A stretch of 64,000 bases of DNA from Conexibacter sp. DBS9H8 (GTDB lineage: Bacteria; Actinomycetota; Thermoleophilia; Solirubrobacterales; Solirubrobacteraceae), in the NCBI RefSeq assembly GCF_023330685.1, contig NZ_CP097128.1:3472001-3536000 (forward strand), in the 5' to 3' direction. The notes beneath the pieces were generated by a model. The model saw only the letters and a program-made list of their open reading frames with translations, did no database searches and had not been told where the DNA came from. The position numbers and the translations under genes were made by a program. This document shows positions 10,587 to 26,849 of the stretch, in pieces. Numbering within the stretch: the stretch's first letter is position 1; the number at the start of each line of letters is the position of its first letter.

Positions 10587-10991
10587 ATGATCGGTCCTGG
10601 TGCCACACTGGGACCCTGGGCCCTTGATCACGTCGGCGCCGCCGACATGCGGACGCTGGCAGAGGTCTTCGAGGACCCCAACCCAATCCATCTGGACCGC
10701 GCAGCGGTAGGTGCGCTCGGGATGGGGGATGCCCTGATCAACCAAGGTCCCGCAAACATCGCGTACATCTACAACATGCTCCGGTACACACTTCCGGACG
10801 CAACCGTCGAACAGCTGTCGGTGCGTCTGCTGGCAAACGTGCGAGAGGGGGATCGGGTCATCGCCGGCGGAGAGGTTCTCACTGAGCGACGTGAGGGAGG
10901 TCGGTCGTGGCTCAGCTGTCGGGTCTGGCTCGACGTAGCCAATAGAGCTCGGGCCATCGACGGGACAGCCGAGCTCCTGCTCCCTGCCTGA
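10587..10991 (+). CDS. MaoC-like enoyl-CoA hydratase
   Basis: A 134-residue single hotdog domain. RTLAEVFEDPNPIHLDRAA carries the MaoC/R-hydratase signature (Asp and His of the hydratase-2 motif), and INQGPANIAYIYNML follows as the substrate-tunnel helix. It should hydrate a trans-2-enoyl-CoA to a 3-hydroxyacyl-CoA. The start chosen is ATG 10587; it overlaps (ATGA) the stop of a short frame METVKTPVAA (10558-10590), which may be the tail of a gene lost or cut by IS1380 copy 2. A longer frame that begins inside the element is an artefact. It is probably the partner of the FAS1-like half at 8329. Confidence 0.75.
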   Translation: MIGPGATLGPWALDHVGAADMRTLAEVFEDPNPIHLDRAAVGALGMGDALINQGPANIAYIYNMLRYTLPDATVEQLSVRLLANVREGDRVIAGGEVLTERREGGRSWLSCRVWLDVANRARAIDGTAELLLPA

Positions 10992-11248: not shown

Positions 11249-12256
11249 TCACGGGTTCGGCGCGGACGTGAGCTGCCGTTGGACGATGGCAGCGGCAGAG
11301 GCGGGATCCAATGTGCGGGCGGCGACCCGGTCCAAAACCTGTCGAGCGACCGGGTCGTTCGCGGCTATCGTCTCAAGGTCATTGCGGAGCCGGCGAACCG
11401 CGATCGCAACCACGGCAGTGGTCAGATTGTGCCGCCTCCGGTCCCGCAAAGTGCCCGCTGCGTCAAGGTGGGCCCGGTGCTCCGCGATCGTGTCGAGCAG
11501 CATCGCAACGCCGACGCCGCTGGCGGCTTGGGTGAGGAGGACCGGGACCTGCCAGCCCTGCCTGGATCGGAGAGCGAGGACGCCCTTGATCTCTCTCACC
11601 ATCGTTTGGGTCAGCGGGTGGTCCGCCTTGTTGACCACGATGACGTCGGGGATCTCCATCACTCCCGCCTTCAGCGCCTGGACCGAATCTCCAGAGCCTG
11701 GCACCAGCACTAGGACTACCGTGTCAGCATGGTGAACGATGTCGACCTCCGCCTGACCGACCCCTACCGTTTCAACGAGCACCGAGTCACAGCCCGACGC
11801 ATCCATCAGGAGTACAGCCTGCAGTGCCGCCTCCGCCAATCCCCCGAGTGCCCCGCGGTTGGCCATGCTGCGGATGAACACTCCGGGGTCGAGGAAGTGC
11901 TCCGTCAGCCGGATCCTGTCCCCGAGCAGCGCCCCGTTCGTGAAAGGGCTCGACGGATCGACACTCAATACCGCGATTGTGCGGTCGCGCTCGCGTTCGA
12001 GCTTGGTGACCGCGCCCACCAGCGTCGACTTGCCAACCCCGGGGGGCCCGGTGAATCCCACGATCGCCGCGTTCCCGGTATGCGGATAGACAATCCGTAC
12101 GATTTCACAGCCCTCGGGCGTGCCGGCCTCCACGAGGGTGATCGCACGGGCCAGCGCAGAGCGGTCGCCCTCAAGGAGACGTCGAGCCAGACCGCTGGCT
12201 CGCGTGGACGCTGAGGCTGTCTCCACAGTGTCAGCGGGCAGTGACGGCGTGCTCAA
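11249..12256 (-). CDS. meaB: MeaB/ArgK-type GTPase, chaperone of a B12-dependent mutase
   Basis: A 335-residue G3E-family GTPase. It shows the Walker A GFTGPPGVGKSTL (about residue 67-79), SVDPSSPFTNGALLGDR (switch/base-specific region of MeaB), the Walker B-like VLVETVGVGQAEVD, and NKAD as the G4 motif. MeaB proteins load adenosylcobalamin onto acyl-CoA mutases and rescue inactivated enzyme. It is the last gene of the mutase operon and overlaps the 3' end of the MmgE/PrpD gene by 26 bp, so its client is almost certainly the mutase at 17560-19299. A helical C-terminal dimerisation region (LRNDLETIAANDPVARQ) is present. Length is usual for the family. Confidence 0.93.
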   Translation of the reverse strand: MSTPSLPADTVETASASTRASGLARRLLEGDRSALARAITLVEAGTPEGCEIVRIVYPHTGNAAIVGFTGPPGVGKSTLVGAVTKLERERDRTIAVLSVDPSSPFTNGALLGDRIRLTEHFLDPGVFIRSMANRGALGGLAEAALQAVLLMDASGCDSVLVETVGVGQAEVDIVHHADTVVLVLVPGSGDSVQALKAGVMEIPDVIVVNKADHPLTQTMVREIKGVLALRSRQGWQVPVLLTQAASGVGVAMLLDTIAEHRAHLDAAGTLRDRRRHNLTTAVVAIAVRRLRNDLETIAANDPVARQVLDRVAARTLDPASAAAIVQRQLTSAPNP

Positions 12257-13637
12257 TCACACGCTTGAGCTGCCCGACGTTCGGCAGATCGCGCAGATCC
12301 CGGGTCAAGGTGGTCAGCTGCGTGGAGAGCTCGGGATCGACGAGATGTTCGAGCAACGTCGCGGCTTTGCGTTCGACGTCCGCCCGAGTCATCGGACAGG
12401 CTCGGCTGCCCTTCGGGTCCTCCACCTCCGCTTGGAACGTCTCCCCGCCTTCAGTGCTCACCGTGACTCGGGTGGGGAAGTGGGCGGGATAGATCCGATC
12501 CATCACAGCGTCATGCTCAAAGGTGACCAGACCGGCAATGCTCAGCAAATCTGGATCGGCCGGCCGCTTGCCGAGGAAATGCTGCACGGTGACATCTCCG
12601 TCGGCAAGCGCCGCGGCAAGGCAGAACTGAAGGCTCATCTGCGCCTCAACCCGGCCGCCGTTGCCGCTGTATTCATAACCGCACTGAAGTAGCACGCTTT
12701 CGGCGTTCGCCACGTTGATCTGGGTCACCGCATGAGGTTCGAGACCGTGCCTCTCACGCAGCGCAAGGAGCGCGTCGATCGACGAATGGGCGCTCCCACA
12801 GCATGGGTATGGCTTGATCGCGACCGAGTCAAGATCAAACCGGTGGCCAAGATCCCGGGTTAGCTCGCCAAACCGCGGAGCGTCAGAGATCGCGCTAAGC
12901 AGACCGCCGTCTGCGGCGTCAAGCGAGAGCAGCGGGCCTTTGAAGCCGCGCTTGCCCAGGCTAGCCGCGAGAATCCCGGCCTCAGCGGCCCGGCCAGCGT
13001 GGAAGCATTTTGTCATCGCCCCCTCAGCGCTGAAGGAGAACGTGCCCGCGGCCGTCGACGCGGCCACCCCGAAGGCACGGGCAAGTTGCTCGGCGTCCAA
13101 CCGAAGTAACCGGCCGGCGGCCGCTGTCGCTCCAAACGGACCGACGAGACCCGTGATATGCCAGCCCCGCGACCGTACCGAGCTACCGCCGGCGGCGATG
13201 CTCACCCTCCCCATGACGTCGTAGGCTGCGACCAAGGTCTCAAGGAGCTCGTGACCGGTCATCTTGTCATCGGCGAGGGCCAAGATGACGGGCGCGATCA
13301 CCGCCCCCACATGGGTTTTGCCCGCGGGGAGGTAGTCGTCGAATTCAAAACCGTGCGCACCCGCCGCATTGATGTTCGCGGCCCCGGCCGGATGCACATC
13401 CGCGCCCGACGCCCAGCTGATCGCAGACCCGCGCCGATACCGGGCTCTCACCTCGGAGTCGATCATCTGCACGGCGTCCTGAGTGGCACCGAACAGGCCG
13501 TTGGCGATCGCGTCAAGCAGCACAGAGCCGGCTCGCTGAACCGTCTCGTCGGAGAGCTGGTCGGCGTGAATCCCGCTCAACACATGTTGGGCGAGGATCT
13601 CGGTCGGAGTGTGGGTATGGGGCGGAGCGATGCTCAT
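12231..13637 (-). CDS. MmgE/PrpD-family protein (2-methylcitrate dehydratase-like)
   Basis: A 468-residue member of the MmgE/PrpD fold. It has the N-terminal helical domain with SVLLDAIANGLFGATQ, the conserved HGFEFDDYLPAGKTHVGAVI near residue 115, the AFGVAASTAAGTFSF helix and KPYPCCGSAHSSIDAL in the lid region. Family members include 2-methylcitrate dehydratase, cis-aconitate decarboxylase and iminodisuccinate epimerase, so dehydration or decarboxylation of a poly-carboxylate is possible. The exact reaction cannot be called. Placement between the aldehyde dehydrogenase and MeaB makes it part of the mutase pathway and, together with the VOC protein, recalls propionate-type metabolism without proving it. 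Confidence 0.85.
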   Translation of the reverse strand: MSIAPPHTHTPTEILAQHVLSGIHADQLSDETVQRAGSVLLDAIANGLFGATQDAVQMIDSEVRARYRRGSAISWASGADVHPAGAANINAAGAHGFEFDDYLPAGKTHVGAVIAPVILALADDKMTGHELLETLVAAYDVMGRVSIAAGGSSVRSRGWHITGLVGPFGATAAAGRLLRLDAEQLARAFGVAASTAAGTFSFSAEGAMTKCFHAGRAAEAGILAASLGKRGFKGPLLSLDAADGGLLSAISDAPRFGELTRDLGHRFDLDSVAIKPYPCCGSAHSSIDALLALRERHGLEPHAVTQINVANAESVLLQCGYEYSGNGGRVEAQMSLQFCLAAALADGDVTVQHFLGKRPADPDLLSIAGLVTFEHDAVMDRIYPAHFPTRVTVSTEGGETFQAEVEDPKGSRACPMTRADVERKAATLLEHLVDPELSTQLTTLTRDLRDLPNVGQLKRVIEHAVTAR

Positions 13638-13647
13638 ACTGGCGACC

Positions 13648-15111
13648 TCACGTCTTCAGCAGGAACGGGTCACGAGCCGCCCCCGAGGTGTCGATCATGG
13701 TGTTCTTGATCCGGGTGTAGCTCTCGATGGCCTCGGTGCCGCGTTCGCGCCCATAACCGCTATGTCCGAACCCACCGAACGGCGCCTGCGTTGCAGTTGC
13801 CCGGTAGGTGTTCACCCAGACCATTCCGCAGGCGAGCTCACGTGAGACGCGATGTGCGCGGCTCAGGTCGGAGGTCCAGACCCCTCCGGCCAAACCAAAC
13901 GGGGTTGCGTTGGCGATCTCGACCGCCTCCGCCTCAGTCGTGAAGCTCTGAATACTGAGGACCGGTCCGAAGATCTCCTCCTGGGCAACCCGCATCTCCG
14001 AGCTCACGCCCGTGAGCACGGTCGGCGGGACGAACAGAGGCTCGCCGTCGACGTTGGCCTCAGCTCCACCCAATGCCAGGGTCGCTCCTTCTGACACAGC
14101 ATCACTGATGGCTTGGCGAATGCGCTCGTATTGCGGCACGGTGGCAATCGGCCCCATCTCCGTGGCTTCGTCCAGCGGGTCACCGAGCTTGATCACAGAC
14201 GCCCGGTTCAACACACCCTCTGTGACCTCGTCGTAGACGCGCTCGTCGACGAGCAGCCGAGAGCCCGCGACACACGTCTGCCCGGCAGCTGCGAAGATGC
14301 CCGCAACGGCGCCGGACACGGCGTTCTCAATCACCGCATCGGCGAAGATGACGTTCGCCGATTTCCCGCCGAGCTCGAGGGCGACCGGGATCAGCGACTC
14401 GGCCGCAGCATGGGCGATCGCCCGCCCGACGCCCACGCTCCCCGTGAAGCTGACCATGTTGATCTTCGGATGGCTGACCAGTGCCCTGCCGACGTCGGCA
14501 GTCCCCGCCAATACGTTGATCACGCCAGCCGGAAAGCCCGCCTCAGCAACGAGCTGTGCCATCGCCAAGGTGCTCACCGAGGCGAACTCCGAAGGTTTGA
14601 TGACGGCTGTGTTGCCACACGCCAGCGCCGGCGGCAGCTTGTTCGACAGCAACGAGATGGGAGAGTTCCATGCGGTGAGGAGAGCGACCGCGCCGTGCGG
14701 CTCACGCACCGTGTAATTGAGCATGTCGACGTTGTCGAGCTGTTTGGTCTCCCCGTACATCTTGTCCGCGAGCCCGGCGTAGTAGCGGTAGTTGCGTGCG
14801 GCGAAGCGGATCTGATTCCGCGTCTCCCGGATGATCTTTCCGTTGTCGAGGGTTTCGATCTCCGCGAGTTCGTCGGCATCCCGCTCAAGCAGCTCGGCCA
14901 GCCGAAACATGAGTGCGGCGCGAGTGACCCCGCTGGATCTGCGCCATTGCGATGACGCAGCCTGCGCCGCGTTCACTGCGGCGTCGACCTGGCCGGTGTC
15001 GGCGGAGTTGAACTCCGCCCAGGTCCGGCGCGAGTACGGATTCTCGCTGGCGATCGTGGGTCCGTTTCCGTCGACGAATTCGCCGCCGATGTACAGCGAG
15101 AAGCGCTTCAC
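13648..15111 (-). CDS. NAD(P)-dependent aldehyde dehydrogenase
   Basis: A 487-residue ALDH. The general-base region reads VALELGGKSANVIF, and the nucleophile Cys lies in AGQTCVAGSRLLVDE. FTGSVGVG binds the dinucleotide, and EEIFGPVLSIQSF closes the domain. The start is taken as GTG 15111, overlapping the stop of the CaiB gene (GTGA); a longer frame to 15222 only copies antisense sequence. It oxidises an aldehyde to an acid or acyl-CoA. In this operon it may handle a semialdehyde released later in the pathway, which the CaiB transferase beside it could turn into a CoA ester. Confidence 0.92.
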   Translation of the reverse strand: MKRFSLYIGGEFVDGNGPTIASENPYSRRTWAEFNSADTGQVDAAVNAAQAASSQWRRSSGVTRAALMFRLAELLERDADELAEIETLDNGKIIRETRNQIRFAARNYRYYAGLADKMYGETKQLDNVDMLNYTVREPHGAVALLTAWNSPISLLSNKLPPALACGNTAVIKPSEFASVSTLAMAQLVAEAGFPAGVINVLAGTADVGRALVSHPKINMVSFTGSVGVGRAIAHAAAESLIPVALELGGKSANVIFADAVIENAVSGAVAGIFAAAGQTCVAGSRLLVDERVYDEVTEGVLNRASVIKLGDPLDEATEMGPIATVPQYERIRQAISDAVSEGATLALGGAEANVDGEPLFVPPTVLTGVSSEMRVAQEEIFGPVLSIQSFTTEAEAVEIANATPFGLAGGVWTSDLSRAHRVSRELACGMVWVNTYRATATQAPFGGFGHSGYGRERGTEAIESYTRIKNTMIDTSGAARDPFLLKT

Positions 15112-16367
15112 ACCACACCATCCTTCTTCAGCTCGTCGAGTTTCTCGGGGCTGACGTTGAGTAGCTCGCCGAGGACCTCGCCCGCATCGCCGCCGATGAT
15201 CGGGGCGCTGCGGTACTCCCACTCGTGGCTGGTCATGCGGATTGGGTTACCGACGAACTTCAGCGTTCCGCCCAGCTTGTTTTCGATCTCGACGGTCATC
15301 CCGCGCGCCTGAACCTGGGGGTCGGCCAGCGCTTCGTCAAGCCGGTTGACCGGGGCACAGAGTAGGTCAGACGCCATCAGATCGGTCAACCACTCCCCAC
15401 TGGTGCGCTCCAGGAAGACGGCGGCGATCAGCTCCATCAGCTCGGACTGGTGGGCGGCCCTCAACCTGGGCTCACTGAAGCGCTCGTCGGTCAGCCACTT
15501 AGGCTGGTTCATCACCTCGACCAGGCGACCCCAGCTCTTCTGGTCGTACACCGCGATCACGATGTAGGCGTCATCAGCGCACTTGTACGCGGCATAGGAC
15601 GGACTGTGTCCGCCCGACCCCTGCGGCCCGGGTATGGCGCCGTCGAGGAAGTAGTACGCCGAGAAGTACGGGACCATCGCGATCTGTCCATCGAGGAGGC
15701 CGATATCGATGGCCGCAGACGGTGGCCCGTCCTGCTCTCGGTCTCGCAGCGCCGCCATGATCGCAATGACCATCCACATCCCACCCGCGAGATCGGCCAC
15801 CGGAAGACCCATGCGGGCGGGCGGCTGCCCCGGATGCCCGGTCATGCTCATGCCGCCCGACAGCGCCTGGGCGATGAGGTCGACCCCCGGCCGATCGCGG
15901 TACGGGCCGGTCTGCCCGAACGCACTGAGCTGGGCGTAGATCAGGTTCGGATTGACCGCCTTCAGAGCCTCGTAGTCCAGACCGAGACGATCCATGACAC
16001 CGGGACGGAAGTTGTTGAAGCAGACGTCAGCCTTGGCCACCAGCCCCAGGAACAGCTCTCGCCCGACATCGGACTTCAGGTTCAGGGTCATGCTCCGCTT
16101 GTTGCGATTCAGCGCCAGGTAATGGGCGTCCTGACCCTTGTAGTAGTGGCGGACCATTCCGCCCGGGTCGTACCCGGCGTTGGAGCCAGGAGCTTCGATC
16201 TTGATGACGTCGGCGCCCAGGTCGGCCAGCAACATCGTGCAGTAGGGGCCGGCCAAGTGCCATGACAGGTCGAGCACGGTCACGCCCGCCAACGGCCCTC
16301 CGCGAGACCTACCGGAGCCTGGACTCTCGCCCGTCTCCCTCCTTGCGTCTGTGCTTTCGTCAAGCAT
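15108..16367 (-). CDS. CaiB/BaiF family CoA-transferase
   Basis: A 419-residue type III CoA-transferase. The N-terminus has VTVLDLSWHLAGPYCTMLLA and LGADVIKIEAPGSNAGYDPG, the CoA-binding Rossmann part. The nucleophilic Asp is in MGLPVADLAGGMW. It moves CoA between carboxylic acids through aspartyl-CoA and anhydride intermediates. The ATG at 16367 follows GGAGGCTGT, and the gene overlaps the B12-binding-subunit gene by 8 bp. In the operon it could activate the pathway acid at the expense of a downstream CoA ester, which would make the neighbouring ligase dispensable. Confidence 0.92.
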   Translation of the reverse strand: MLDESTDARRETGESPGSGRSRGGPLAGVTVLDLSWHLAGPYCTMLLADLGADVIKIEAPGSNAGYDPGGMVRHYYKGQDAHYLALNRNKRSMTLNLKSDVGRELFLGLVAKADVCFNNFRPGVMDRLGLDYEALKAVNPNLIYAQLSAFGQTGPYRDRPGVDLIAQALSGGMSMTGHPGQPPARMGLPVADLAGGMWMVIAIMAALRDREQDGPPSAAIDIGLLDGQIAMVPYFSAYYFLDGAIPGPQGSGGHSPSYAAYKCADDAYIVIAVYDQKSWGRLVEVMNQPKWLTDERFSEPRLRAAHQSELMELIAAVFLERTSGEWLTDLMASDLLCAPVNRLDEALADPQVQARGMTVEIENKLGGTLKFVGNPIRMTSHEWEYRSAPIIGGDAGEVLGELLNVSPEKLDELKKDGVV

Positions 16368-16794
16368 GCAACAGCCTCCTCCGCTCGGATACGGCCTCCT
16401 TGAGGGCCACAACGATTCCGCTGACCGGGGACTCGACGTTGAACACCAGGGCAACACCCGCCTGGAGCATCTCCTGTTCGTCATCGGGCGGTATGAGCCC
16501 GCCCACGACAACGAGCGGCGGCGTGTCAACCGGCTCGAGCAGGTCAAGGATCGCCTTGGAGAAATGACGGTGCCCACCGGCCAGGCTGCTCAGACCGATG
16601 ACGTCAGCGTCCTCCTGCAGTGCGGCGGCAACCACCTGCTCAGGCGTCCTGCGCAGACCGAGGTAGATGACTTCGAATCCGGCATTGCGGAGTCCGTGCG
16701 CGACCACGTGAACCCCGCGCTCGTGGGCGTCGAGTCCTGCCTTGGCGAGGATCACCCGGCCGCGAGGGCCGCTGAGGCCGTCATGCATCGCCAT
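16360..16794 (-). CDS. B12-binding small subunit of an acyl-CoA mutase
   Basis: A 144-residue cobalamin-binding Rossmann domain. ILAKAGLDAHERGVHVVA contains the DxHxxG motif that supplies the lower-axial His ligand; VIGLSSLAGGH (SxL motif) and VVVGGLIPPDDE (GG motif) complete the site. It matches the size of the small subunit of ICM- or archaeal MCM-type mutases. Start ATG 16794 overlaps the crotonase gene by 14 bp; a second ATG at 16788 is also possible. It should pair with the large subunit at 17560-19299, from which it is separated only by the crotonase gene. Confidence 0.93.
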   Translation of the reverse strand: MAMHDGLSGPRGRVILAKAGLDAHERGVHVVAHGLRNAGFEVIYLGLRRTPEQVVAAALQEDADVIGLSSLAGGHRHFSKAILDLLEPVDTPPLVVVGGLIPPDDEQEMLQAGVALVFNVESPVSGIVVALKEAVSERRRLLHA

Positions 16795-17563
16795 GCTCCT
16801 TGTCGCTCGTGGTGACGAAATCTGTGAGCGCTCGTGCCCGCTCCGCAGACCGCGTCGATTCCAGGCGCAGCCGATCCAAGGGCGCCCAGAACTGCTCCGA
16901 CCGGTCAGCTGGCTTGGCGAACTCATCGAGGATGTGCTTGTGCGAGCGCGCGAGCGCTGGGCTGGCGGCAACCCAGTTGTCAACTCGATCGTCCACCGAG
17001 GCCGCCTCGACCAGCTGATCGATCAGGCCGACTCGCAGCGCCTCAGATGCCTCAAGACGGTGGCCGCACATGAAGAGTCGCTTCGCCACCGACGGGCCGA
17101 GGATCGCCTGAAACCGCTCCAGCGAGCGTGGCTCGTAGACGGTGCCCAAGTTCGCTGCGGGCAGCCAGAACGTCGCATCGGCGGTGGCGATGCGGTGATC
17201 GCAGGACATGGCAAGGTCGAGTCCGGCCCCGGCGCAGTATCCGCGCACCAAGGCAAGCGTGGGAACCGGGCATGCGATAAGCGCAGCTGTGACGGCAAAG
17301 AGGATCTGGGACGGAGGCGGCGTCTCGGACTTTGCGATCTGAAGCGCCCGGATGTCGAACCCTGCGCTGAAGGCCTTCGTTCCAGCCCCCGTGACGGCCA
17401 GGAGCCTGAGCGTGGGGTCGGCCGAGGCGGCACGGACAATCTCAAGCAGCTGTCCGAGCTGCTCAGGATGCAGCGCGTTGTGCACCGCCGGCCGATTCAG
17501 GGTGACGGTCAGCACCTCACGCGCACGACGTGTGAACAGCATGTCCGCAGTCTGGGTGCTCAT
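16781..17563 (-). CDS. Crotonase-superfamily protein lacking the two hydratase glutamates
   Basis: A 260-residue enoyl-CoA hydratase/isomerase-fold protein. The oxyanion hole is clear (FSAGFDIRAL, then VRGYCAGAGLDLAMSCDHR). However, the two catalytic Glu positions of ECHS1-type hydratases are changed: GCELA-type Glu reads GLDLA, and the second, normally FGQPE-type, reads FWLPAANLG. It therefore may be an isomerase, hydrolase, decarboxylase or C-C lyase rather than a hydratase. It sits between the mutase large and B12 subunits and overlaps the former by 4 bp, so it probably acts directly on the mutase substrate or product. Confidence 0.85.
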   Translation of the reverse strand: MSTQTADMLFTRRAREVLTVTLNRPAVHNALHPEQLGQLLEIVRAASADPTLRLLAVTGAGTKAFSAGFDIRALQIAKSETPPPSQILFAVTAALIACPVPTLALVRGYCAGAGLDLAMSCDHRIATADATFWLPAANLGTVYEPRSLERFQAILGPSVAKRLFMCGHRLEASEALRVGLIDQLVEAASVDDRVDNWVAASPALARSHKHILDEFAKPADRSEQFWAPLDRLRLESTRSAERARALTDFVTTSDKEHGDA

Positions 17564-19299
17564 GAGTACATGGCCTCACCGAACTGCTCCCGCAGGACGT
17601 GACAGATCTGGCCGATGGTCGCGTAGGCCAAGGCACACTCGATCATCGGCGGGATCAGGTTCGCGCCCGGATCCCGGGCCGCCTGTTTCAGAGCGGTCAG
17701 AGTTGCGGCCACCAGACGGTCGTCGCGCTCGCGCCGGAGCGCCATCAACTCGGCTTTCTGGCGTTCCTCGGCTGTGGCCAAGAGCGCCGGGTCGTACTCG
17801 GGCGTGCGATTGACTTCCACGTCGATCTCCTGGTCAGACGTGTAGCCGTTGACACCAACCCAGACTTCTTGTCCATTTTCCAACTCGCTCTGATGCTCCC
17901 ACGCGGATTGCGCGATGGCGGCGCGATAGTGTCCGCTCTCGACGCCCCAGATAGCACCGCCGCCTTTGGCAACCGTCTCCATCTCGGCCAGGGTCCGTTC
18001 TTCGATCTCGCGCGTCAGCTTCTCAACCGCGTAGGAACCACCCAGCGGGTCGAGCGTCCGTCCCAGCTTGGCCTCGTGAAAGATGATCCGCTTGATATCG
18101 CGGCTGACCTGCTGGGCCTCGATGCTGTGGCCGAGACCGAGCGGCTCGTCGAACGGCGACAGACCCCCGGTCACCTCACCTGAAGCCGTTGCCTGGATCA
18201 TCGCTTCAATCGTGGCTCGCACGATGTTGTTGATGTACCGGTGGGCGGTCATCTTCGTATATGCGTTTCCCCAGGCGTGCTCGCCTCCCCGCAGCAGACA
18301 GGTCCGATCCAGCTTCGCACCGAACTCCTCCCGCATGATGCGTGCCCAGATGCGTCGCGCCGCACGGGGGGCAGCAACTCCCGGGAGGAAGGCGAGCGAC
18401 GAGTCGCCGAAGCCGCGAAACGTGAAGCGCTGGACGAAGCGATCGACATCCAGCCCGGCCTCGATCCCGAGCTGAACGTACTCACGCGCGTTGCAGAAGC
18501 CGAAGGCGAGGGACTGTTCGGTGCTCGCTCCGGCGTAACGCATGTGCTCGGCGCAGATGCTGATGCTGTTGGCCCGCGGCATGTACTCGTCCATGAACAC
18601 GATGGTGTCCCGGACCAATCGCAGTGACTCACGCACCGGAAAGATGTAGAGCCCGCGGGCGACAAATTCTTTGAGAATGTCGTTCTGGGGCGTGCAGCGG
18701 AGCGCCTGGGTGCTCACTCCCCGCTTTGCCGCAAGCGCGCAGTAGAACGCGATGTAGACGCTCGCCGGCGCGTTGATCGTCCAGTTGGACGCGACCTTAT
18801 CCAAACCGTGGTCGCCCGTGAACGACTCGTAAATGATCTCGAAATCACGTAGCGAATCGATCGCGACCCCAACCTGGCCGACCTCACCTGCGGCACGCGG
18901 GTCGTCAGAGTCCCACCCGAGTTGGGACGGCAGATCGGAGGCGATGTTCGCCCCGCCAATCCGCATCCCCTGGTCGCGCATGCTGCGGTAGTAGTCACGG
19001 CAGTCCACGGAGGCGCCGAATCCCGAGTACCGGCCGGCCCGGTGGCGGTGCATTGTCTCTCCGCCGAGCACCTGTGCCGGTGTGGGGTACAGCCAACTGG
19101 TGAACGGGTACTCCCCCGGCAGGCCGACGTCACGGAGAAAATCGAAATCCTCGAGGCCGAGAGGGGAATTTGGCTCCGCGGTCACCTCGTGCGGCTGTAC
19201 TCCCATGCGCTTGACGGACGGCTCCAGGGTGTCTGTGCGCCACCGCTCCACGCGGACGCACAAGTCGGACGTGCTGCTTGTGCTGCTGGTGGTGCTCAC
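17560..19299 (-). CDS. Divergent B12-dependent acyl-CoA mutase, large (substrate-binding) subunit
   Basis: A 579-residue TIM-barrel subunit of the methylmalonyl-CoA mutase family. Shared landmarks are YPFTSWLYPTPAQ, GRYSGFGAS (Tyr as in MCM), GWDSDDPRAAGEVGQVGVAID, WTINAPASVYIAFYCALA, QNDILKEFVARGLYIFP (Arg as in MCM) and ISICAEHMRYAGAS (His kept). The stretch that normally reads FFNAHNDFFEE is FRGFGDSSLAFLP here, and the HTQTAG region reads GGEHAWGNAYTKMTA, so the active site is strongly remodelled. IcmA has Phe/Gln in place of the Tyr/Arg pair, so this is not a standard ICM; nor is it a standard MCM. It has no B12 domain of its own and should use the subunit at 16360. It likely rearranges a carbon skeleton of an unidentified acyl-CoA. 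Confidence 0.9.
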   Translation of the reverse strand: MSTTSSTSSTSDLCVRVERWRTDTLEPSVKRMGVQPHEVTAEPNSPLGLEDFDFLRDVGLPGEYPFTSWLYPTPAQVLGGETMHRHRAGRYSGFGASVDCRDYYRSMRDQGMRIGGANIASDLPSQLGWDSDDPRAAGEVGQVGVAIDSLRDFEIIYESFTGDHGLDKVASNWTINAPASVYIAFYCALAAKRGVSTQALRCTPQNDILKEFVARGLYIFPVRESLRLVRDTIVFMDEYMPRANSISICAEHMRYAGASTEQSLAFGFCNAREYVQLGIEAGLDVDRFVQRFTFRGFGDSSLAFLPGVAAPRAARRIWARIMREEFGAKLDRTCLLRGGEHAWGNAYTKMTAHRYINNIVRATIEAMIQATASGEVTGGLSPFDEPLGLGHSIEAQQVSRDIKRIIFHEAKLGRTLDPLGGSYAVEKLTREIEERTLAEMETVAKGGGAIWGVESGHYRAAIAQSAWEHQSELENGQEVWVGVNGYTSDQEIDVEVNRTPEYDPALLATAEERQKAELMALRRERDDRLVAATLTALKQAARDPGANLIPPMIECALAYATIGQICHVLREQFGEAMYS

Positions 19300-20462
19300 C
19301 GGTCTTGCTCCCGATATCCGAGCGCGTACTCGGCGATCATGGCGGTATGCAATTCGTTGTTCCCTTCAACGATCTGGAAGACCTTCGCGTCGCGAAAGTA
19401 CCGGGCGACCGGATAATCCTCAGAGATTCCATAGGCTCCGTGGATCTGCACGGCGCTGGTCGCAGCGGCCATGGCGACGTTGGAGGCATGCATCTTGGCA
19501 AGGCTGGCCCTGCGTCGCGGACGCTCAATGCCGGCATCCTTATCAGCCGCGAGATCCGCGATCAGGTGGCGTGCGGACTCCACTCCCGTGACCATCTCGG
19601 TGATCTTGCCCTGAACCAGTTGGTAGCGGCCGATCTGCTGACCCATCACCGTGCGTTCGGTGGCGTATTTGACTGACGCATCGAGGCTCGCCTGGGCGAG
19701 TCCGAGTGCGCGGGCCGCGACCGACAGCCGGCCAGTCTCCACGGCGGCCATCGCCACCGCGTAGCCCTGCCCCTCCTCCCCGACGCGGTTGGCCGCCGGA
19801 ACGAACACGTCATCGAGCACCAGGTCGCCGGTTGACAGAGGGCGGAAGCCGAGCTTGTTCTTGTAGGGCACCCGGCCCAGGCCATCACTATCGGCCTCCA
19901 CAACAAACGCGCAGACCCCCTGGCGTCCAGTGGTCCCTTCGAGCCGCGCGAACGTGAGGAACCAGGCGGCGTGTTCGAGCATGCTGATCCATGCCTTGGC
20001 CCCCCTAATCACGTATCCCCCGTCGATATGGCGGCAGGTTGTGGTCATATCAGCCACCGCAGTGCCGCTGCCAGGTTCGGTGACGCCAGCCCCGGCGAAT
20101 GTCTCACCGGCGACGAGCGGCCGGATGTAGGTCTGCTTCTGCGCCTCGCTGCCATACCGGAGAATCCCGCCTCCCACGAGCCCGCTCGGCATCGACACCG
20201 CGAGCCCGATGATGTGACAGACGCGCGACAACTCCTCGATCAGGCTCGCGAAGGAGACCCAGTCCAGACCCGAACCCCCATATTGCTCCGGGACCGCCGC
20301 CCCGAGCCATCCGGGACCCGCCGTCGCTCTGATCAGGTCGGCCGGGAGCCGCTCCTCGCGATCATACGTGCCCACCTGTGGCGCGACTTCCTTGCGGGCA
20401 AAGTCGCGCGCGCTCTCAATCAGAACCGCGCGCTCTCGACTGTCGAGAACCGCGGTGCTCAT
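19296..20462 (-). CDS. Acyl-CoA dehydrogenase
   Basis: A 388-residue acyl-CoA dehydrogenase. It has FAGAGVTEPGSGTAVADM for the flavin/substrate site, GAKAWISMLEHAAWFL, the ERTVMGQQIGRYQLVQ helix and VFQIVEGNNELHTAMIAEY, in which Glu sits at the classical catalytic-base position. Start ATG 20462 is chosen because it overlaps the stop of the epimerase gene (ATGA); a longer open frame to 21005 only mirrors the epimerase gene. It probably desaturates an acyl-CoA just before or after the rearrangement performed by the adjacent mutase, whose ATG overlaps its stop. Confidence 0.92.
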   Translation of the reverse strand: MSTAVLDSRERAVLIESARDFARKEVAPQVGTYDREERLPADLIRATAGPGWLGAAVPEQYGGSGLDWVSFASLIEELSRVCHIIGLAVSMPSGLVGGGILRYGSEAQKQTYIRPLVAGETFAGAGVTEPGSGTAVADMTTTCRHIDGGYVIRGAKAWISMLEHAAWFLTFARLEGTTGRQGVCAFVVEADSDGLGRVPYKNKLGFRPLSTGDLVLDDVFVPAANRVGEEGQGYAVAMAAVETGRLSVAARALGLAQASLDASVKYATERTVMGQQIGRYQLVQGKITEMVTGVESARHLIADLAADKDAGIERPRRRASLAKMHASNVAMAAATSAVQIHGAYGISEDYPVARYFRDAKVFQIVEGNNELHTAMIAEYALGYREQDR

Positions 20463-21364
20463 CTCGCGACCTGCTGCTGGGACACGAGTGCGTCCCTTGC
20501 CCAGCCAAGAAAGCTGCGAGGCTCGATGCCGAACTCGTCCCGGATGCGCGAGAAATCGATGAGCGAAACGTGAGGGATACGTTGGTCCTCTGGACCCAGC
20601 TCGATTTCGACGTCGGGGTGGACTGACCGAATGACGTCCGCCAACTGCCCGATGGTGGAGAACTCGCCGCCGGCGTTGTACACGTCGTACTGAGGCGCTG
20701 GCGCGGTCGCCAGGGTGGCAAACTCCACGCCGACGTCGTCGACGTTGATCATGCACGAGTCGGCGTTGGGTCCGAACGGGCATGTGGCGTGCCCGGTCAA
20801 CGCCGTCTCGAGCATCGCGTTGACCGGTGCGGAGAACCCTGTCTTGCGACCGGGCCCCCACACGGTTGAAATCCGCAGGCCCACGCAGCGGATCCCCAGT
20901 GTCGCCTGGTAGGCGGCAGCCGTGGCCTCGTTTAATTGCTTGTGGTAGCCGTAGAGGAAGAACGGCTGGCCGTGGTCCTCCTCGGTGACGGCGTGTTCGC
21001 CCCATTGAGGCTGGTCTCCGTACACCGCTATCGAGCTCGCATAGACAAACCGCCGGACCCCCGCCTGCGCTGCCGCGTCTAGGACGTTCTGCATCCCGAC
21101 CACGTTGATCTCGAGGCCGGCGTTCAGGTCGGCGAGGGTGTCGGAGGCGAGCAGAGCCGCCAGATGGATCACCGCGTCTGGCTTGACCTCATCGATCGCT
21201 TTCCGTACCGCCTGCTTGTTGCTGATGTCGCCTTGGATCGCCGCTCCGGCGAAGCTGTCCGGAATGAAGCGATCGAAGGCGACCGGCTCATGTCCCAGCT
21301 CGGCCAGGGCCTTGCAGGTGCTGCGCCCGATAAATCCGGCACCACCGGAGACCAGCACGATCAT
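20459..21364 (-). CDS. NAD-dependent epimerase/dehydratase (extended SDR)
   Basis: A 301-residue extended short-chain dehydrogenase. The N-terminal VSGGAGFIGRS is the GxxGxxG NAD site, and AVIHLAAL and VYASSIAVYGDQ (Ser) precede FLYGYHKQLNEA, which gives the YxxxK catalytic pair. Members act on nucleotide sugars, but many oxidise or dehydrate small hydroxy substrates. Here the setting in an acyl-CoA operon argues for a dehydrogenase or dehydratase of a pathway alcohol. It overlaps both neighbours by 4 bp. Confidence 0.85.
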   Translation of the reverse strand: MIVLVSGGAGFIGRSTCKALAELGHEPVAFDRFIPDSFAGAAIQGDISNKQAVRKAIDEVKPDAVIHLAALLASDTLADLNAGLEINVVGMQNVLDAAAQAGVRRFVYASSIAVYGDQPQWGEHAVTEEDHGQPFFLYGYHKQLNEATAAAYQATLGIRCVGLRISTVWGPGRKTGFSAPVNAMLETALTGHATCPFGPNADSCMINVDDVGVEFATLATAPAPQYDVYNAGGEFSTIGQLADVIRSVHPDVEIELGPEDQRIPHVSLIDFSRIRDEFGIEPRSFLGWARDALVSQQQVAR

Positions 21365-23040
21365 CGTGTGACCTCGCTCAACTTCGCCAGATCCGGTCCG
21401 CCAGGGCTTCGCCCAGGGAAGTAGCCCTCGACCCTGTCGCGATCTACAGCCTCGGGATCACGGTCGCACGGGTCGCCGTAGCCGCCGCCGCCGGGTGAAC
21501 GAACCTCTAGGCGATCGCCTCTCTTCATCACTACTCCAGTGCATTTGGTGGTGTGTGGCGGAATAAAAGCTTGGCCCTCGAGCTCCCACTCGATCTCGGT
21601 CATTGCCGCATCGTGGCCACCCATCACGCCCCGGGGAGCGAAGCGGCCGCGATCAGCCAGAACGGTGGACGTCGCTTCATCGGCGAGCATCCGGACACTG
21701 AGATCCACGCCAAATCCGCCCCGGTGCCGGCCCAGGCCGGCCGAGTCCTCGCGAAGTGCATAACGCTCGAACAGCACCGGGTTCTGGCTCTCCAGCACCT
21801 CGACAGGTGAGGAGCGGGCAATGCTGATGGGGGGCGGAGCATTCGTCAGCCCGTCACCGTGCTCGTGGCCTCCGTAGCCGCCGCCCGTAAAGCAGAACAT
21901 GATGAACGGCCGGTCACGGCGTTCGTCGTAACCGGAGATCGTAAAGTTGCAAATCGTGCCGTACGCCCCGGCTCCGATCCGCCCCGGCAGGATTGGTTGC
22001 AATGCCCCAAACACCGCATCGCCGATCCGGACAGTTACCTCAGAAGCGCAGCCGCTCACCGCCCGGGGATACGCGGCGTCGAGGAAAGTGCCCAGGGCAC
22101 GCTTGACTTCCAGCGGCCGGAAGCAACCTCCGTTGTTGGGCACCTCGGGGAAGATGTGCTTCATGTAGAGGTAGACCGCCGATGCCGCGGCAGCGTAAGA
22201 GGTATTCAACGGGCCGCGCACCGGGGGAGAGCTCCCCGCGAAGTCGAACGTCATGAGTTCGCCGGCCACGGTGATCGTGATCGCACACGTCAAGGGCTCC
22301 TGGTTCACACCGTCACTGTCGAGATGTTCGACATGGCTATAGGTGCCATCGGGGACCGTCGCGATCATCGCCCGCATCTGCGCCTCTGAGCGATCAGCAA
22401 GCTGATTAATGGCTTCACGCACCGTGCCGGCGCCGTAACGGGCAAGGATCGCTCGCAGGCGTGTCTCCCCCACCGCCATGGCGCTCAACTGCGCACGTAG
22501 GTCGGCCTCACGCTCGTGCGGAATGCGGATGTTCGCCATCAACAGCCGGCGCACGCCAGGCTGCAGAACTCCCCGCTCATACAGCTTGATCGGAGGTACC
22601 CTGATGCCTTCCTGGAATACCTCGGTGGCGGTGGGGGCGAACCCGCCTGGAACCATTCCGCCGATGTCGGTCCAGTGCGCGGTGTCGGCCAGGAAGCAGA
22701 ACAGGCGACCATCGACGAAGATCGGCTTCACGAGCTTCATGTCCATGAGGTGGGTGCCCGAGGTGTAGGGGTCGTTGATCATCACGACGTCACCCTCGTG
22801 CCATTCGTCGATGTCGGCCAGCGCTGCCTCAACGGCGAACTGCATCGAGCCGACGAACAGCGGCAACCCGGTCTCTCCCTGGGAGATCAGCTCGCCGTCG
22901 ACATCATAGATCCCACTGGACCGGTCACGAGACTCCGAGACGATCGGGCAGAGCGATGTCCGCTCAATCGTGATGTCCATCTCATTGCAGACCTGCTGCA
23001 AGCCGTTGGTAATCACCGTCAGTGTCGTCGTGTCGATCAC
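21361..23040 (-). CDS. Hydantoinase B/oxoprolinase-family protein, operon 1
   Basis: A 559-residue HyuB-family subunit. The start MIDTTTLTVITNGLQQVCNEM, the ISQGETGLPLFVGSMQFAV region, DVVMINDPYTSGTHLMDMKL and the glycine-rich HEHGDGLTNAPP segment are typical. The C-terminal SPGGGGYGDP is a family hallmark. With HyuA these enzymes couple ATP hydrolysis to opening of cyclic imides, 5-oxoproline or hydantoins; relatives are acetone and acetophenone carboxylases. No gamma subunit gene of the acetone carboxylase type is present. It overlaps both neighbours by 4 bp, so it belongs to the mutase operon. Confidence 0.9.
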   Translation of the reverse strand: MIDTTTLTVITNGLQQVCNEMDITIERTSLCPIVSESRDRSSGIYDVDGELISQGETGLPLFVGSMQFAVEAALADIDEWHEGDVVMINDPYTSGTHLMDMKLVKPIFVDGRLFCFLADTAHWTDIGGMVPGGFAPTATEVFQEGIRVPPIKLYERGVLQPGVRRLLMANIRIPHEREADLRAQLSAMAVGETRLRAILARYGAGTVREAINQLADRSEAQMRAMIATVPDGTYSHVEHLDSDGVNQEPLTCAITITVAGELMTFDFAGSSPPVRGPLNTSYAAAASAVYLYMKHIFPEVPNNGGCFRPLEVKRALGTFLDAAYPRAVSGCASEVTVRIGDAVFGALQPILPGRIGAGAYGTICNFTISGYDERRDRPFIMFCFTGGGYGGHEHGDGLTNAPPPISIARSSPVEVLESQNPVLFERYALREDSAGLGRHRGGFGVDLSVRMLADEATSTVLADRGRFAPRGVMGGHDAAMTEIEWELEGQAFIPPHTTKCTGVVMKRGDRLEVRSPGGGGYGDPCDRDPEAVDRDRVEGYFPGRSPGGPDLAKLSEVTR

Positions 23041-25085
23041 GCCCCACCTCCGGTCACATCGATCACCAAGTTGCCGAGCCGGTCTACCTCGATGGCACAG
23101 CCAGCGTCGATCACCGTTGTCCCGTCATCCTGCTCCACCACCGCGGGTCCGCCGAACCGCGCCCCGATCGGGATCAGCTCTCGCCTCAGGATCGTCGCGT
23201 CGAGCCAGCTCTCACCGAAGGCCACCTGCCGGGTTCCTGTGACAGCGCCCTGAAGATCTGCCGCGGGGCGGCCGGCACGGGGGATCAATTCCAAGTCCAC
23301 CGGCTGTCCTTCGCCGATGACGGCACACCTCACGTTCACGAGCTTTCTGGCGATCGCGCCCGGAGCCGCGAAGGCGAAGGAGGCCTCGTGCAACTCCTCA
23401 AATCGAGTCTCCAGGGCCTCCCAATCATCTCCGTCGAGGAATGGCACCTCGACGACGTGGGTCTGGCCGTCGTACTGCATGTCCAGCACGCGCCGAACAC
23501 GGATCTTCTCCGGCTCGATTCCCTGGTCGTGGAGCAGAGCCAGTCCTTCGACCGATAGCCGTTCGGCGATCGCCGTGACCTCTTGCACCTCAACCGCGGC
23601 TGTAAGACGGTTGACGGTCTGCACGTAGTCGTAGCGCGACTGGGCCACCAGCGTCCCGAGCGCAGAGGTGATGCCCAGCCGGTAGGGAACGATGACGGTC
23701 GGAATCGCCAGTTCGCGGGCGATCTCAACTGCGTTGAGCGCTCCCCCGCCGCCAAAGGCGAAGTACCCGAAATCTCGCGGATCGTGTCCGCGGGACAGAA
23801 GCACAGAGCGCACAGCGCCCGCCATCAGGTCGTTGGCCACGCGAATGATGGCTTGCGCCGACTGAACGGCGTCGAGACCCAGATGCTGTCCGACGTCGCG
23901 TTGCATGGCGGCCTCCACCAACTCCACGTCAACGGCTCCGGACATGCCGATGAGGTGTTCCGGATTCAGTCGGCCCAACAGGAGATTTGCGTCGGTGAGC
24001 GTCGCCCGGTCTCCGCCACGGCCGTAACAGACTGGCCCGGGCGTCGCACCGGCACTCTCGGGGCCGACCTGCAGGAGGCCCTGGCTGGAGATCCGGGCGA
24101 TGCTGCCTCCACCGGCGCCGATCGTGTGAATATCGATCATCGGAAGCTGGACCGGCACGTTGTAGGCCAGCTCGTGACGCGATGTCGTGATCGCCTCACC
24201 ATCGACGATCAGGGCGACGTCGAAGCTCGTGCCACCGACGTCGGCGGTGACACATCGCATGTGCCCGGTCTCCGAGCAGATCCGCGCAGCGGCCGTCACC
24301 CCAGCGGCTGGTCCGCTCAGGACGGTCTGAACCGGAGCTCGTGACGCGATCCGCTCGGTGGTCACTCCACCGTTTGATCTCATGATCAGAAGCTCTTTCT
24401 GATATCCGGCGGCAGCCAACCGCGCGACCAGGTGGGAGAAGTATTTGTCGATCGCGGGCTGCACGTATGAGCTCACCGCCGCCGTGCTGAGCCGCTCGAA
24501 CTCTCGATGTTCCGCGAGGATCTCGTGAGAGGCGGTCACATAGTCGGTCGGCCAGAGCTCACGTATCACCGCAGCCGCGCGGCGTTCGTGCACCGGGTTC
24601 GCGTAGCAGTGCAAAAACATGACCAGGACGGATTCGGCTCCGAGCCTCAGCAGATGTCTCGCCGCGTCGCGTACGCCGTCCTCATCAAGCGGGATCACGA
24701 CTTCCCCCGCCGCATTCACACGTTCATCAACCTCAACGCGGAGATGGCGCGGGATGAGCGGAACGTACTCCCCGGTCAGGCCGTAGTTGTGGGGCCGAGT
24801 TCGGGGTCCGATCTCCATGGTATCCCGAAAGCCCCGTGTGGTGATCAAACCGCAAACGGCGCCTTTGCGCTCGAGAACCGCGTTTGTCCCGACCGTGGTG
24901 CCGTGTGAAATGAGGTCGACGGTCGACAGGTCGTCATATCCGAGTGACGAGAGGCCTGCCATGAATGCGGCTGATTGATCGGCCACGCTCGTCGGGACCT
25001 TGCTCGTCCTGACCTCGCCCGCGTCGTTGATCGAGATGATGTCCGTAAACGTGCCACCGACATCGACTCCAATGGCCAGCGTCAT
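23037..25085 (-). CDS. Hydantoinase A/oxoprolinase-family protein, operon 1 (first gene)
   Basis: A 682-residue HyuA-family subunit with ASKHA ATPase features. GVDVGGTFTDIISI is phosphate loop 1, ISHGTTVGTNAVLERKG follows, RCVTADVGGTSFDVAL is loop 2, and YFAFGGGGALNAVEIARE lies near the adenosine site. It probably forms the ATP-using half of a complex with the HyuB protein encoded next. Start ATG 25085 lies 57 bp downstream of a 14-bp palindrome and a good promoter. A longer in-frame reading begins inside IS1380 copy 3 and is not real. Whether the substrate is a cyclic amide or a ketone to be carboxylated cannot be told from sequence. Confidence 0.9.
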   Translation of the reverse strand: MTLAIGVDVGGTFTDIISINDAGEVRTSKVPTSVADQSAAFMAGLSSLGYDDLSTVDLISHGTTVGTNAVLERKGAVCGLITTRGFRDTMEIGPRTRPHNYGLTGEYVPLIPRHLRVEVDERVNAAGEVVIPLDEDGVRDAARHLLRLGAESVLVMFLHCYANPVHERRAAAVIRELWPTDYVTASHEILAEHREFERLSTAAVSSYVQPAIDKYFSHLVARLAAAGYQKELLIMRSNGGVTTERIASRAPVQTVLSGPAAGVTAAARICSETGHMRCVTADVGGTSFDVALIVDGEAITTSRHELAYNVPVQLPMIDIHTIGAGGGSIARISSQGLLQVGPESAGATPGPVCYGRGGDRATLTDANLLLGRLNPEHLIGMSGAVDVELVEAAMQRDVGQHLGLDAVQSAQAIIRVANDLMAGAVRSVLLSRGHDPRDFGYFAFGGGGALNAVEIARELAIPTVIVPYRLGITSALGTLVAQSRYDYVQTVNRLTAAVEVQEVTAIAERLSVEGLALLHDQGIEPEKIRVRRVLDMQYDGQTHVVEVPFLDGDDWEALETRFEELHEASFAFAAPGAIARKLVNVRCAVIGEGQPVDLELIPRAGRPAADLQGAVTGTRQVAFGESWLDATILRRELIPIGARFGGPAVVEQDDGTTVIDAGCAIEVDRLGNLVIDVTGGGA

Positions 25086-25141
25086 GGATGGACGACCCTG
25101 TGGATTCTCACGTCCTCGACCCTCTCTCCGAACCACGATCC

Positions 25142-25184: not shown

Positions 25185-25204
25185 GTGCGGATGCGCTGAT
25201 TTAG

Positions 25205-26849
25205 CCCTGATCCACCGATGGGCTGGGTCAGAGTTCTTTTTTGCGGTCGCTGGGCCGGTTCTTGCTTGATGGGAGGTGCTGGCGGGGTTGAACGGGGTGC
25301 CAGGTCTCTCGGCTATCGGGTCCAAAGCGGTTTTCGGGGTCGGTTTGGGGCGGCGGTGATCGCGCCCGGGGTGAGCGGAAGGTCGGCGGGAGTTCAGTGA
25401 GGCCGGGACCGGCCGGTCGGCCGGTCAGGCGGCTGGGAGTGCGCGTATCCGTGCGAGTGCGGCGAGGTAGTCGCCGTGCCAGGGCCAGCGGGCGGGGAGG
25501 TGCAGGGTCCAGCCGCGTGCGTGTCGGGTCAGCCGTCCGGTGATCTGGATCAGTCGGCGCCGCAGGGTGCGGGCGGCGCGGATGGTGCTGTTGGGCAGCC
25601 CGATGATCTGGGTCCATCTGAGCAGGTTGTGCGCGAGTGCGGCGAGCACGGTCCAGGCGGCGTTCGCGTAGAAGTGACCGGAGGGAAAGTGCTGAAGAGC
25701 CTGGTCTTTGAGGTCGGCGATGACCTGCTCCACGACGGCGTGGTCACGGTGTTCGGCCTCGACCAGGGCGAGCGCGTCGGTGCGGTTGGTGATGAAGCAG
25801 AAGTGTCGCCAGTCCGGCCAGAGCATGAGCTGCTCAGGGTCAGTCAGGCGGGTGCGGCGCACGATGAGACGCCGGTTGTTGTAGAGAGTCTCGGCGATCT
25901 GGGCTTCACCGCCGTCGGGGTACTCAATCGACTGCCAGTCACCATCTGCGATCCCATGGATCGCTGTGGTCACAGCCTTGATGTTGCGCACCCCGATGGA
26001 GTACTGCCAGCCCTTGGCCTCCAGCAGCTCGAACACCTTCATGTTCCAGAACCCCGAGTCTGCGCGCACGAGCTTTTGCCCGGTCGCACCGGCGCGTTCG
26101 ACGCGGGCGATCAGTTCCTCACAGAACCGTTTGACACCCTTTTGCGTGTTCGCTGATCCCTTGCGCAGTCGGATGTGCAGCGCCTCGCGGGTATCGGCCC
26201 GGGTCGCCAGCAGCGGGTGATATCCAAACAGCTTGGTGTACCCGTATCCCGCTCCCTGTTTCAGTGGGCCGCACACCTCCCCGACGAAGCTGTCGATGTC
26301 GATCACCAGCCGGGCGTGGCCGGGGCCCGCGCCGGCCCGCCACGCACGCGCCAGCGTGTCGCCGAGCAGCTTGTCGAGCTGGCGAACATGCCCGAAGGTG
26401 AACGCGCGCAGGAACGTGCCCAGCGTCGAGGGCGCCGGCATCCACCCGCCGAGCAGCCGTCCGGTCCGGCCCGCCCGCAGCACCTGACAATCATCGATGC
26501 AGTCCGCGCCGAGGACCATCGCGAACAGGACCGCCATGACCTTGCGGCCCGCGTTCGCCGCCCCCGGACGGTCAGACCGCAGAGAGATCAGCCGGCCGGC
26601 GAGTGACTCGACCCCAAGGCGCCGCGTGAGCGTGCTGACCAGCGCGATCCCGGCGTCAGACACCGCCCGCTCATCATCAAAAACGACCTGGACGCCGTCC
26701 AGTCCGACCGTCGTGGCATCGTTCACCATGAAGGTGACCTCCTGATCGCAGGCCGCGACCGCCGGAATCGGTCGCTTTTAACCTGCTCAGGAGGTCATTC
26801 TTCACACGACCCCGGACAGAACCACCCCACAGAATCAGTGGATCAGGGC
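25205..26849 (-). mobile_element. IS1380-family insertion sequence, copy 3 (inverted)
   Basis: The third 1,645-bp copy, in the opposite orientation to copies 1 and 2. It is flanked by TTAG at 25201-25204 and 26850-26853, which is CTAA on the element's coding strand. It separates the IclR regulator gene from the promoter of the mutase operon; without it the gap would be about 190 bp. Ends, leader hairpin (26736-26796) and tail hairpin (25407-25426) match the other copies. Confidence 0.95.
25425..26729 (-). CDS. IS1380-family transposase, copy 3
   Basis: A 434-residue transposase identical to the products of the other two copies, transcribed toward the mutase operon. The reading frame is intact. 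Read-through from this element could add transcription to the hyuA promoter region, though the hairpin over its stop may limit that. Confidence 0.93.
   Translation of the reverse strand: MVNDATTVGLDGVQVVFDDERAVSDAGIALVSTLTRRLGVESLAGRLISLRSDRPGAANAGRKVMAVLFAMVLGADCIDDCQVLRAGRTGRLLGGWMPAPSTLGTFLRAFTFGHVRQLDKLLGDTLARAWRAGAGPGHARLVIDIDSFVGEVCGPLKQGAGYGYTKLFGYHPLLATRADTREALHIRLRKGSANTQKGVKRFCEELIARVERAGATGQKLVRADSGFWNMKVFELLEAKGWQYSIGVRNIKAVTTAIHGIADGDWQSIEYPDGGEAQIAETLYNNRRLIVRRTRLTDPEQLMLWPDWRHFCFITNRTDALALVEAEHRDHAVVEQVIADLKDQALQHFPSGHFYANAAWTVLAALAHNLLRWTQIIGLPNSTIRAARTLRRRLIQITGRLTRHARGWTLHLPARWPWHGDYLAALARIRALPAA

Follow-up and report, generated by a model that had tools for sequence, protein, structure and literature searches.

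The window analysed here, a 64,000-nucleotide stretch of DNA from Conexibacter sp. DBS9H8, carries an adenosylcobalamin (AdoCbl)-dependent acyl-CoA mutase that sits in a proposed catabolic operon between two insertion sequence (IS) copies. We consider it likely that this enzyme interconverts 2-substituted succinyl-CoA and substituted malonyl-CoA. An earlier note on this DNA had proposed a carboxylated, larger substrate such as a substituted succinyl- or malonyl-CoA; this proposal is supported by the nesting of the mutase in a superclade at 100/100, by a dicarboxylate-type CaiB, by a ScpB-like crotonase, and by a PrpD protein with succinate-binding residues, although the substrate itself is a prediction.

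Fold and active site of the mutase

In profile searches the mutase gene (17560-19299) matches MM_CoA_mutase (PF01642, E 1.8e-116) and TIGR00641 (E 3.3e-119); the structures 4r3u, 2xij and 1req align along most of the reading frame, the best sequence match in the Protein Data Bank (PDB) being 2-hydroxyisobutyryl-CoA mutase (HCM; 4R3U, E 7.7e-81). An AlphaFold2 (AF2) model from 29 sequences (pLDDT 86.6, pTM 0.90) displays the ordinary mutase barrel, with Z scores of 40.4 against human methylmalonyl-CoA mutase (MCM) and 40.0 against HCM (VIA-align); structural alignment with MCM gives 31-33% identity at Z 38-40. The PF01642 match, the barrel fold and a nearby PF02310 subunit with DAHERG identify the protein as an AdoCbl mutase large subunit.

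Mapped to P. shermanii MCM (1REQ, whose numbering is used below), four active-site residues are kept—Tyr89 is Y91, Arg207 is R215, His244 is H252 and Glu370 is E385—in agreement with the earlier note, which had matched the Tyr, Arg and His. Other positions are replaced: Tyr243 by E251, Phe117 by S121, Phe287 by R295, Ser329 by E340, and Gln330 by H341. The MCM motif SGYH reads C249-A-E251-H; SFFWGIGMNFFMEV becomes TFRGFGDSSLAFLPGV, which adds two residues to a substrate-side loop, and LRTHSQTSGWSLT becomes LRGGEHAWGNAYTKMT, which adds three to a second one.

Known mutase types were considered and rejected as identities. Isobutyryl-CoA mutase (ICM), already set aside in the earlier note, has Phe/Gln at positions 89/207 where the window protein has Tyr/Arg; HCM has a separate large subunit like that of the window, but 4R3U shows Ile/Gln at these positions. 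MCM (1REQ, 2XIJ) shares the fold and Tyr89, Arg207, His244 and Glu370; however, the window mutase differs in its separate B12 subunit, in replaced pocket residues including Tyr243, Phe287 and Gln330, and in its position outside the MCM clade.

A single-protein query for related loci found no relative; an alignment query, covering 84,980 species genomes with the best 80 loci listed, then recovered relatives. Among the matches listed there is one close relative, a protein from a Marmoricola metagenome-assembled genome (MAG; Nocardioidaceae), which is 65% identical and has the same CAEH, FRGFG and GGEHAWGN motifs, so these changes are not due to chance. The alignments in the earlier note (SGYH to CAEH, an altered substrate loop, HTQTAG to GGEHAWGN) were correct. 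We refer to the two proteins as the AEH pair. The matches listed also include a large group at about 44-53% identity, from Thermodesulfobacteriota, Chloroflexota, Geothermincola-type Actinomycetota and others; the Geothermincola loci L034 and L065 encode an identical mutase protein. The literature searched yielded no characterised mutase carrying the AEH motif.

Phylogeny and residue signature

In the main tree (IQ-TREE, LG+C20, 45 rows) the window and Marmoricola mutases form a 100/100 pair that falls, again at 100/100, within a large superclade linked by gene context to (1-methylalkyl)succinate synthase, with MCM, HCM and generic mutases outside it; a second, quick tree of 96 rows agrees. 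Aromatoleum IaaG, the HxN1 mutase and characterised ethylmalonyl-CoA mutase (ECM) sequences are not among the tree rows. At the base of the superclade lies the mutase of locus L044, a 41% outlier. An ordinary MCM, ICM or HCM variant changed by neutral drift would have the same fold and Pfam family; against this, the window mutase belongs to none of the MCM, HCM and generic groups, the host genome has its own MCM pair plus other mutases elsewhere, and the private changes are conserved in the 65%-identical Nocardioidaceae homologue, leaving drift extremely unlikely.

The superclade is likely of the alkylsuccinyl-CoA mutase type. A gene matching the L044 glycyl radical enzyme lies in the flank (up to 10 kb a side) at 11 of 60 superclade loci, and that enzyme, as a query, scores 1126 bits against the solved MasD (9o8u) vs 542 bits against benzylsuccinate synthase (BSS). 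MmgE/PrpD genes are found near 34 of the 60 superclade mutases vs none of 28 controls (Fisher p 4e-8, a guide only, as the loci are related and the flanks variable), and a published ass cluster holds mutase large and small subunits, a LAO/AO-type gene and MmgE/PrpD (PMC7180275). A radical-SAM/PDZ protein of ~600-680 aa stands beside the mutase in 15/60 superclade loci, among them many Geothermincola-type loci and some others (for example L034:2119-3939 and L036:6994-9045).

The first idea for the window was an indoleacetate (iaa-type) pathway, in which HyuAB would open an oxindole lactam, CaiB would form (2-aminophenyl)succinyl-CoA, and the mutase would convert it to (2-aminobenzyl)malonyl-CoA, with E251 binding the amino group. 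HyuAB, CaiB, the acyl-CoA dehydrogenase (ACAD), both mutase subunits and MeaB do resemble the published iaa pathway (PMC8360864, PMC5214803), and the new acidic pocket residues suit an amino substituent. For comparison, iaa-type operons were taken from the overlap of mutase and HyuA matches in 192 genomes of the Desulfosarcina alkanivorans class; HyuA lies near a mutase in about two dozen genomes of this class, and nine loci (L129-L137) were examined. In four (L129, L130, L134, L135), an ACAD close by has the GGG motif that PMC8360864 reports for IaaF; these are likely indoleacetate operons. Mutases of iaa-type operons are ~35-39% identical to the window mutase and form a separate clade at 100/100, and joining them with the AEH pair is rejected (p-AU 0.00068); the window ACAD reads VEG, with the catalytic Glu present, not GGG as in IaaF, and HyuA of these operons shares no more than 33-37% identity with that of the window. 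Because iaa-type operons with GGG ACADs were recovered, and because of the tree test, the idea was dropped; we now regard it as unlikely. IaaGH, the benzylmalonyl-CoA/phenylsuccinyl-CoA mutase, is alike in its aryl-succinyl substrate class, its Hyu, CaiB, ACAD and MeaB neighbours, N114, P196, and the loss of F287, Q330 and N366; beyond its clade and the GGG motif of its ACAD, the IaaGH type differs in keeping Tyr243.

These groups can be compared residue by residue in a survey of 118 aligned mutases, whose rows are related and whose group labels (generic, iaa-type, superclade, AEH) come from gene context. Position 114 is Ser in all 29 generic rows and Asn in 9/9 iaa-type, 70/74 superclade and 2/2 AEH rows; the change of Ile196 to Pro has the same counts (9/9, 70/74 and 2/2, with 0/29 generic). 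Almost all iaa-type, superclade and AEH rows have other residues in place of Phe287, Gln330 and Asn366, and Tyr89, Arg207, His244 and Glu370 are near-invariant in these rows. The signature common to superclade and iaa-type mutases is N114, N/G164, P196 and the loss of F287, Q330 and N366, with Y89, R207, H244 and E370 kept. The AEH rows share the changes at 114, 196, 287, 330 and 366, so that a large part of the "rebuilding" characterises likely substituted-succinyl-CoA mutases as a group. What sets the AEH pair apart is the private set of Glu at position 243, Ser at 117 and Arg at 287, the first two being found in no other row of the survey. Position 243 also varies in scattered superclade mutases (L055, L093, L096, L109), with Ala, Gly, Asp or another residue.

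The rebuilt active site of the earlier note is real in its residue changes, but part of it belongs to the whole superclade. That note had also raised the prospect of the protein nesting inside a characterised mutase clade with the same substitutions: it does nest in the superclade, with which it has in common the changes of Ser114 to Asn and Ile196 to Pro, the long loops and the missing Gln330 and Asn366; its private set, however, recurs in one uncharacterised protein only.

The operon and a proposed pathway

The operon runs on the minus strand in the order HyuA, HyuB, short-chain dehydrogenase/reductase (SDR), ACAD, mutase, crotonase, B12 subunit, CaiB, aldehyde dehydrogenase (ALDH), PrpD and MeaB (Table 1). 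Short gene overlaps (19296-19299, 17560-17563, 21361-21364, 23037-23040) suggest co-translation.

Table 1. Features of the window, with coordinates, strand and basis of identification (ORF, open reading frame).
Feature	Coordinates	Strand	Basis and remarks
Left IS copy	8894..10548	+	Exact 1655-nt inverted repeat of right copy; transposase ORF 9018-10322
Weak MaoC-like ORF by left IS	10549..10991	+	PF01575 E 6e-4, 19.9 bits (Pfam cut-off 27); part in pathway uncertain
MeaB-type GTPase (mutase chaperone)	11249..12256	-	PF03308 E 2.7e-83
MmgE/PrpD protein	12231..13637	-	PF03972, PF19305; closest solved structure IDS-epimerase, E 4e-39
ALDH, betaine/aminobutyraldehyde dehydrogenase-like	13648..15111	-	TIGR01804 E 2e-143, below cut-off; ORF to 15222
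CaiB/BaiF class III CoA-transferase	15108..16304	-	NF052585 E 6.3e-78, NF041294 E 4.6e-71, both below curated cut-offs; PDB 9br7; ORF to 16577
B12-binding small subunit	16360..16770	-	PF02310 E 1.3e-24, TIGR00640 E 2.8e-35; DxHxxG is DAHERG; ORF to 16983, homology from near 16770
Crotonase-fold protein, ScpB (methylmalonyl-CoA decarboxylase)-like	16781..17563	-	PF00378, alignments
AdoCbl-dependent acyl-CoA mutase large subunit, (substituted succinyl)-CoA mutase type	17560..19299	-	579 aa; PF01642, residues, tree, AF2
ACAD	19296..20465	-	PF00441, PF02771, PF02770; ORF to 21005, homology from near 20465
Extended SDR (NAD-dependent epimerase/dehydratase family)	20459..21364	-	PF01370 E 3.4e-39
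HyuB, hydantoinase/oxoprolinase B, caprolactamase beta-like	21361..23040	-	PF02538 E 3e-165
HyuA, hydantoinase/oxoprolinase A, caprolactamase alpha-like	23037..25088	-	PF01968, PF05378, PF19278; ORF from 25325, likely start MTLAIGVDVGG near 25088
Right IS copy	25199..26853	-	Exact 1655-nt inverted repeat of left copy; identical transposase ORF 25425-26729

The partner genes give some indication of the chemistry. The window CaiB is nearest to succinate-glutarate and succinyl-CoA:mesaconate transferases, which are of the dicarboxylate type. The crotonase lacks both hydratase Glu residues and keeps the ScpB Tyr (LGVPY) as LGTVY; the hydratase Glu positions and the role of the LGVPY Tyr in ScpB are those we presume. 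We propose that it is a substituted-malonyl-CoA decarboxylase. A ScpB-type Tyr is also present in the Marmoricola crotonase and in two superclade-linked crotonases, and not in that of L073. The E. coli scp operon brings together a mutase, GTPase, decarboxylase and CoA-transferase by the same logic as the window operon.

From the observed sequence, residues, gene order, phylogeny and IS boundaries we predict the following reactions, in this order and direction and for this type of substrate. HyuAB, the ALDH and the SDR would turn an upstream ring compound into a substituted succinate; the PrpD protein would work on the free 1,4-dicarboxylate; CaiB would move CoA from a donor such as succinyl-CoA to the substituted succinate; the mutase, together with the B12 subunit and the chaperone MeaB, would rearrange the skeleton to a substituted malonyl-CoA; the ScpB-like crotonase would decarboxylate this product; and the ACAD would lead it into beta-oxidation. 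In the mutase pocket, Arg215 and Tyr91 would hold the free carboxylate of the substrate and His252 the thioester, while the rebuilt wall (E251, R295, E340, H341, S121) would offer space for, and contact with, the substituent R; R is probably a polar group and not a simple alkyl chain. The mutase is, judging by these features, most likely adapted to a substrate other than alkane-derived succinates. More tentatively, and with rather less confidence than we place in the reaction type, the AEH pair may represent a new specificity: in an aerobic mobile module, it would act on a succinyl-CoA with a polar or amino substituent from hydantoinase-type ring opening, and the change of Tyr243 to Glu would remodel both the substituent pocket and adenosyl radical control. 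The top-listed plasmid homologue of the window HyuA (L140, 47.7%) occurs with a HyuB-type gene near 6-hydroxynicotinate reductase, a context that hints at a reduced pyridine ring being opened at its lactam.

The PrpD protein invites comparison with a published MmgE/PrpD protein that isomerises (S)/(R)-methylsuccinate as the free acid, not the CoA ester (PMC12290011). The window protein keeps the 1,4-dicarboxylate (succinate)-binding set H95, E98, H109, H160, K210 and K275 (residues per PMC12290011); however, it has no second-base Tyr (SVRSRGWH), which places it outside the methylsuccinate isomerases and IDS-epimerases. A methylsuccinate-use operon, in which the mutase would be a methylsuccinyl-CoA/ethylmalonyl-CoA mutase and a decarboxylase would give butyryl-CoA, could draw on the likeness of CaiB, PrpD and ACAD to the published set (PMC12290011) and on methylsuccinate being the smallest 2-substituted succinate. 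A methyl group, though, would not call for large changes in the substituent wall, and the Tyr base of the isomerase is missing. In addition, the host has a separate protein, L003, which we take to be ECM-like from its TYAGHS motif and which shares 34% identity with the window mutase; in the quick tree only, it stands with MCM on a long branch. We judge the methylsuccinate operon improbable; at the level of chemistry, it and the iaa reading remain as rivals.

Elsewhere in the superclade the PrpD proteins look different. Loci including L034, L058, L070, L073 and L094 have a PrpD beside a Mas-type mutase, with the isomerase His, Lys and mostly Tyr; the Mas-linked and Marmoricola PrpDs keep nearly the whole isomerase set, with Tyr in most and Phe in L074 and L089. 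IDS-epimerase is the best solved-structure match for both the window PrpD and the Mas-linked L034 PrpD. As studies of n-hexane degradation require an unidentified epimerase ahead of the rearrangement (PMC4561516, PMC12358834), the Mas-linked MmgE/PrpD proteins are good candidates for an alkylsuccinate C2 epimerase. There is, however, some tension between a free-acid enzyme and the expectation that epimerisation follows CoA-ester formation (PMC4561516). We found no such proposal in the literature searched, which does not show that none exists.

Several points weigh against our preferred assignment of the window mutase to 2-substituted succinyl-CoA. The alkylsuccinyl-CoA assignment of the superclade, itself likely, draws on gene linkage and published pathway chemistry, and the branch of the AEH pair is long, with the rest of the superclade forming one side at 73/83, so the exact placement of the pair inside the superclade is weak. 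HyuAB, the ALDH and the SDR name no single substrate, and the loss of the Tyr base makes an epimerase role in the window operon doubtful. Finally, the mutase has changes at Tyr243, Gln330 and Asn366, residues that we take to shield or anchor the adenosyl group, so its activity should not be taken for granted.

Mobility, host and wider meaning

The two IS copies are 1655 nt long, 100% identical, inverted and 14,650 nt apart, with the operon between them—the arrangement of a composite transposon; by eye, no target-site duplications were clearly recognised at their ends. At the strong threshold, 146 genomes of the host family yield, apart from the window gene itself, a single match (39%); 299 genomes of the host class gave none at that threshold, and 2 of 294 Nocardioidaceae genomes gave a strong match, one of them of the AEH type. 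In plasmid records there was no mutase at 60% identity or above, and three plasmid matches inspected (two haloarchaeal, one Streptomyces) showed neither Hyu genes nor PrpD around the mutase. The paired IS copies and the absence of the gene from relatives are consistent with a composite transposon. Two further features lie outside the IS pair: a 434-aa DDE transposase ORF at 4222-5526 that matches PF13701 and has the same length as the flanking IS transposase ORFs, and a second catabolic stretch at 30872-42593 with a lipoyl E2 acyltransferase, an ACAD, an AtuA-family protein, a branched-chain ABC permease, an ABC ATPase and an FMO-like protein.

A composite IS structure, together with the unusual loss of Tyr243, Gln330 and Asn366, could also suit a decaying or inactive transposon passenger. 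The frame is intact, however, the genes overlap tightly, the partner set is complete (subunit, MeaB), and a conserved homologue exists in a different locus without Hyu genes; this alternative is very unlikely.

The host genome has three heme-copper oxidase genes, from which an aerobic life is inferred. Neither the window genome (93.6% complete) nor the Marmoricola MAG gave a match to PF02901, the mark of a PFL-like glycyl radical enzyme. With heme-copper oxidases present and no PFL-like glycyl radical enzyme found in the host genome, alkane-fumarate addition was rejected as a host function. The (1-methylalkyl)succinyl-CoA mutases of mas/ass loci are like the window mutase in their superclade, N114, N164, P196 and long substrate loops, and have the B12 subunit, MeaB and PrpD as partners, with a ScpB-like crotonase or CoA-transferase in some loci; the window differs in its host's gene content, in the private set of the AEH pair, and in its HyuAB, ALDH and SDR partners.

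The rearrangement of alkylsuccinyl-CoA is a known step of anaerobic hydrocarbon breakdown. By analogy, the window module appears to resemble the mutase stage of anaerobic alkane degradation, but in an organism showing no fumarate-addition enzyme. The survey points to Mas-side MmgE/PrpD proteins as candidates for the epimerase required by n-hexane stereochemistry, and the conserved residue signature offers a sequence test for mutases that act on bulky, carboxylated substrates, of use both in annotation and in B12 mutase engineering. For the host, the presence of the same mutase type between IS copies, alongside heme-copper oxidases, suggests that a "substituted succinate" module may have been reused for other compounds.

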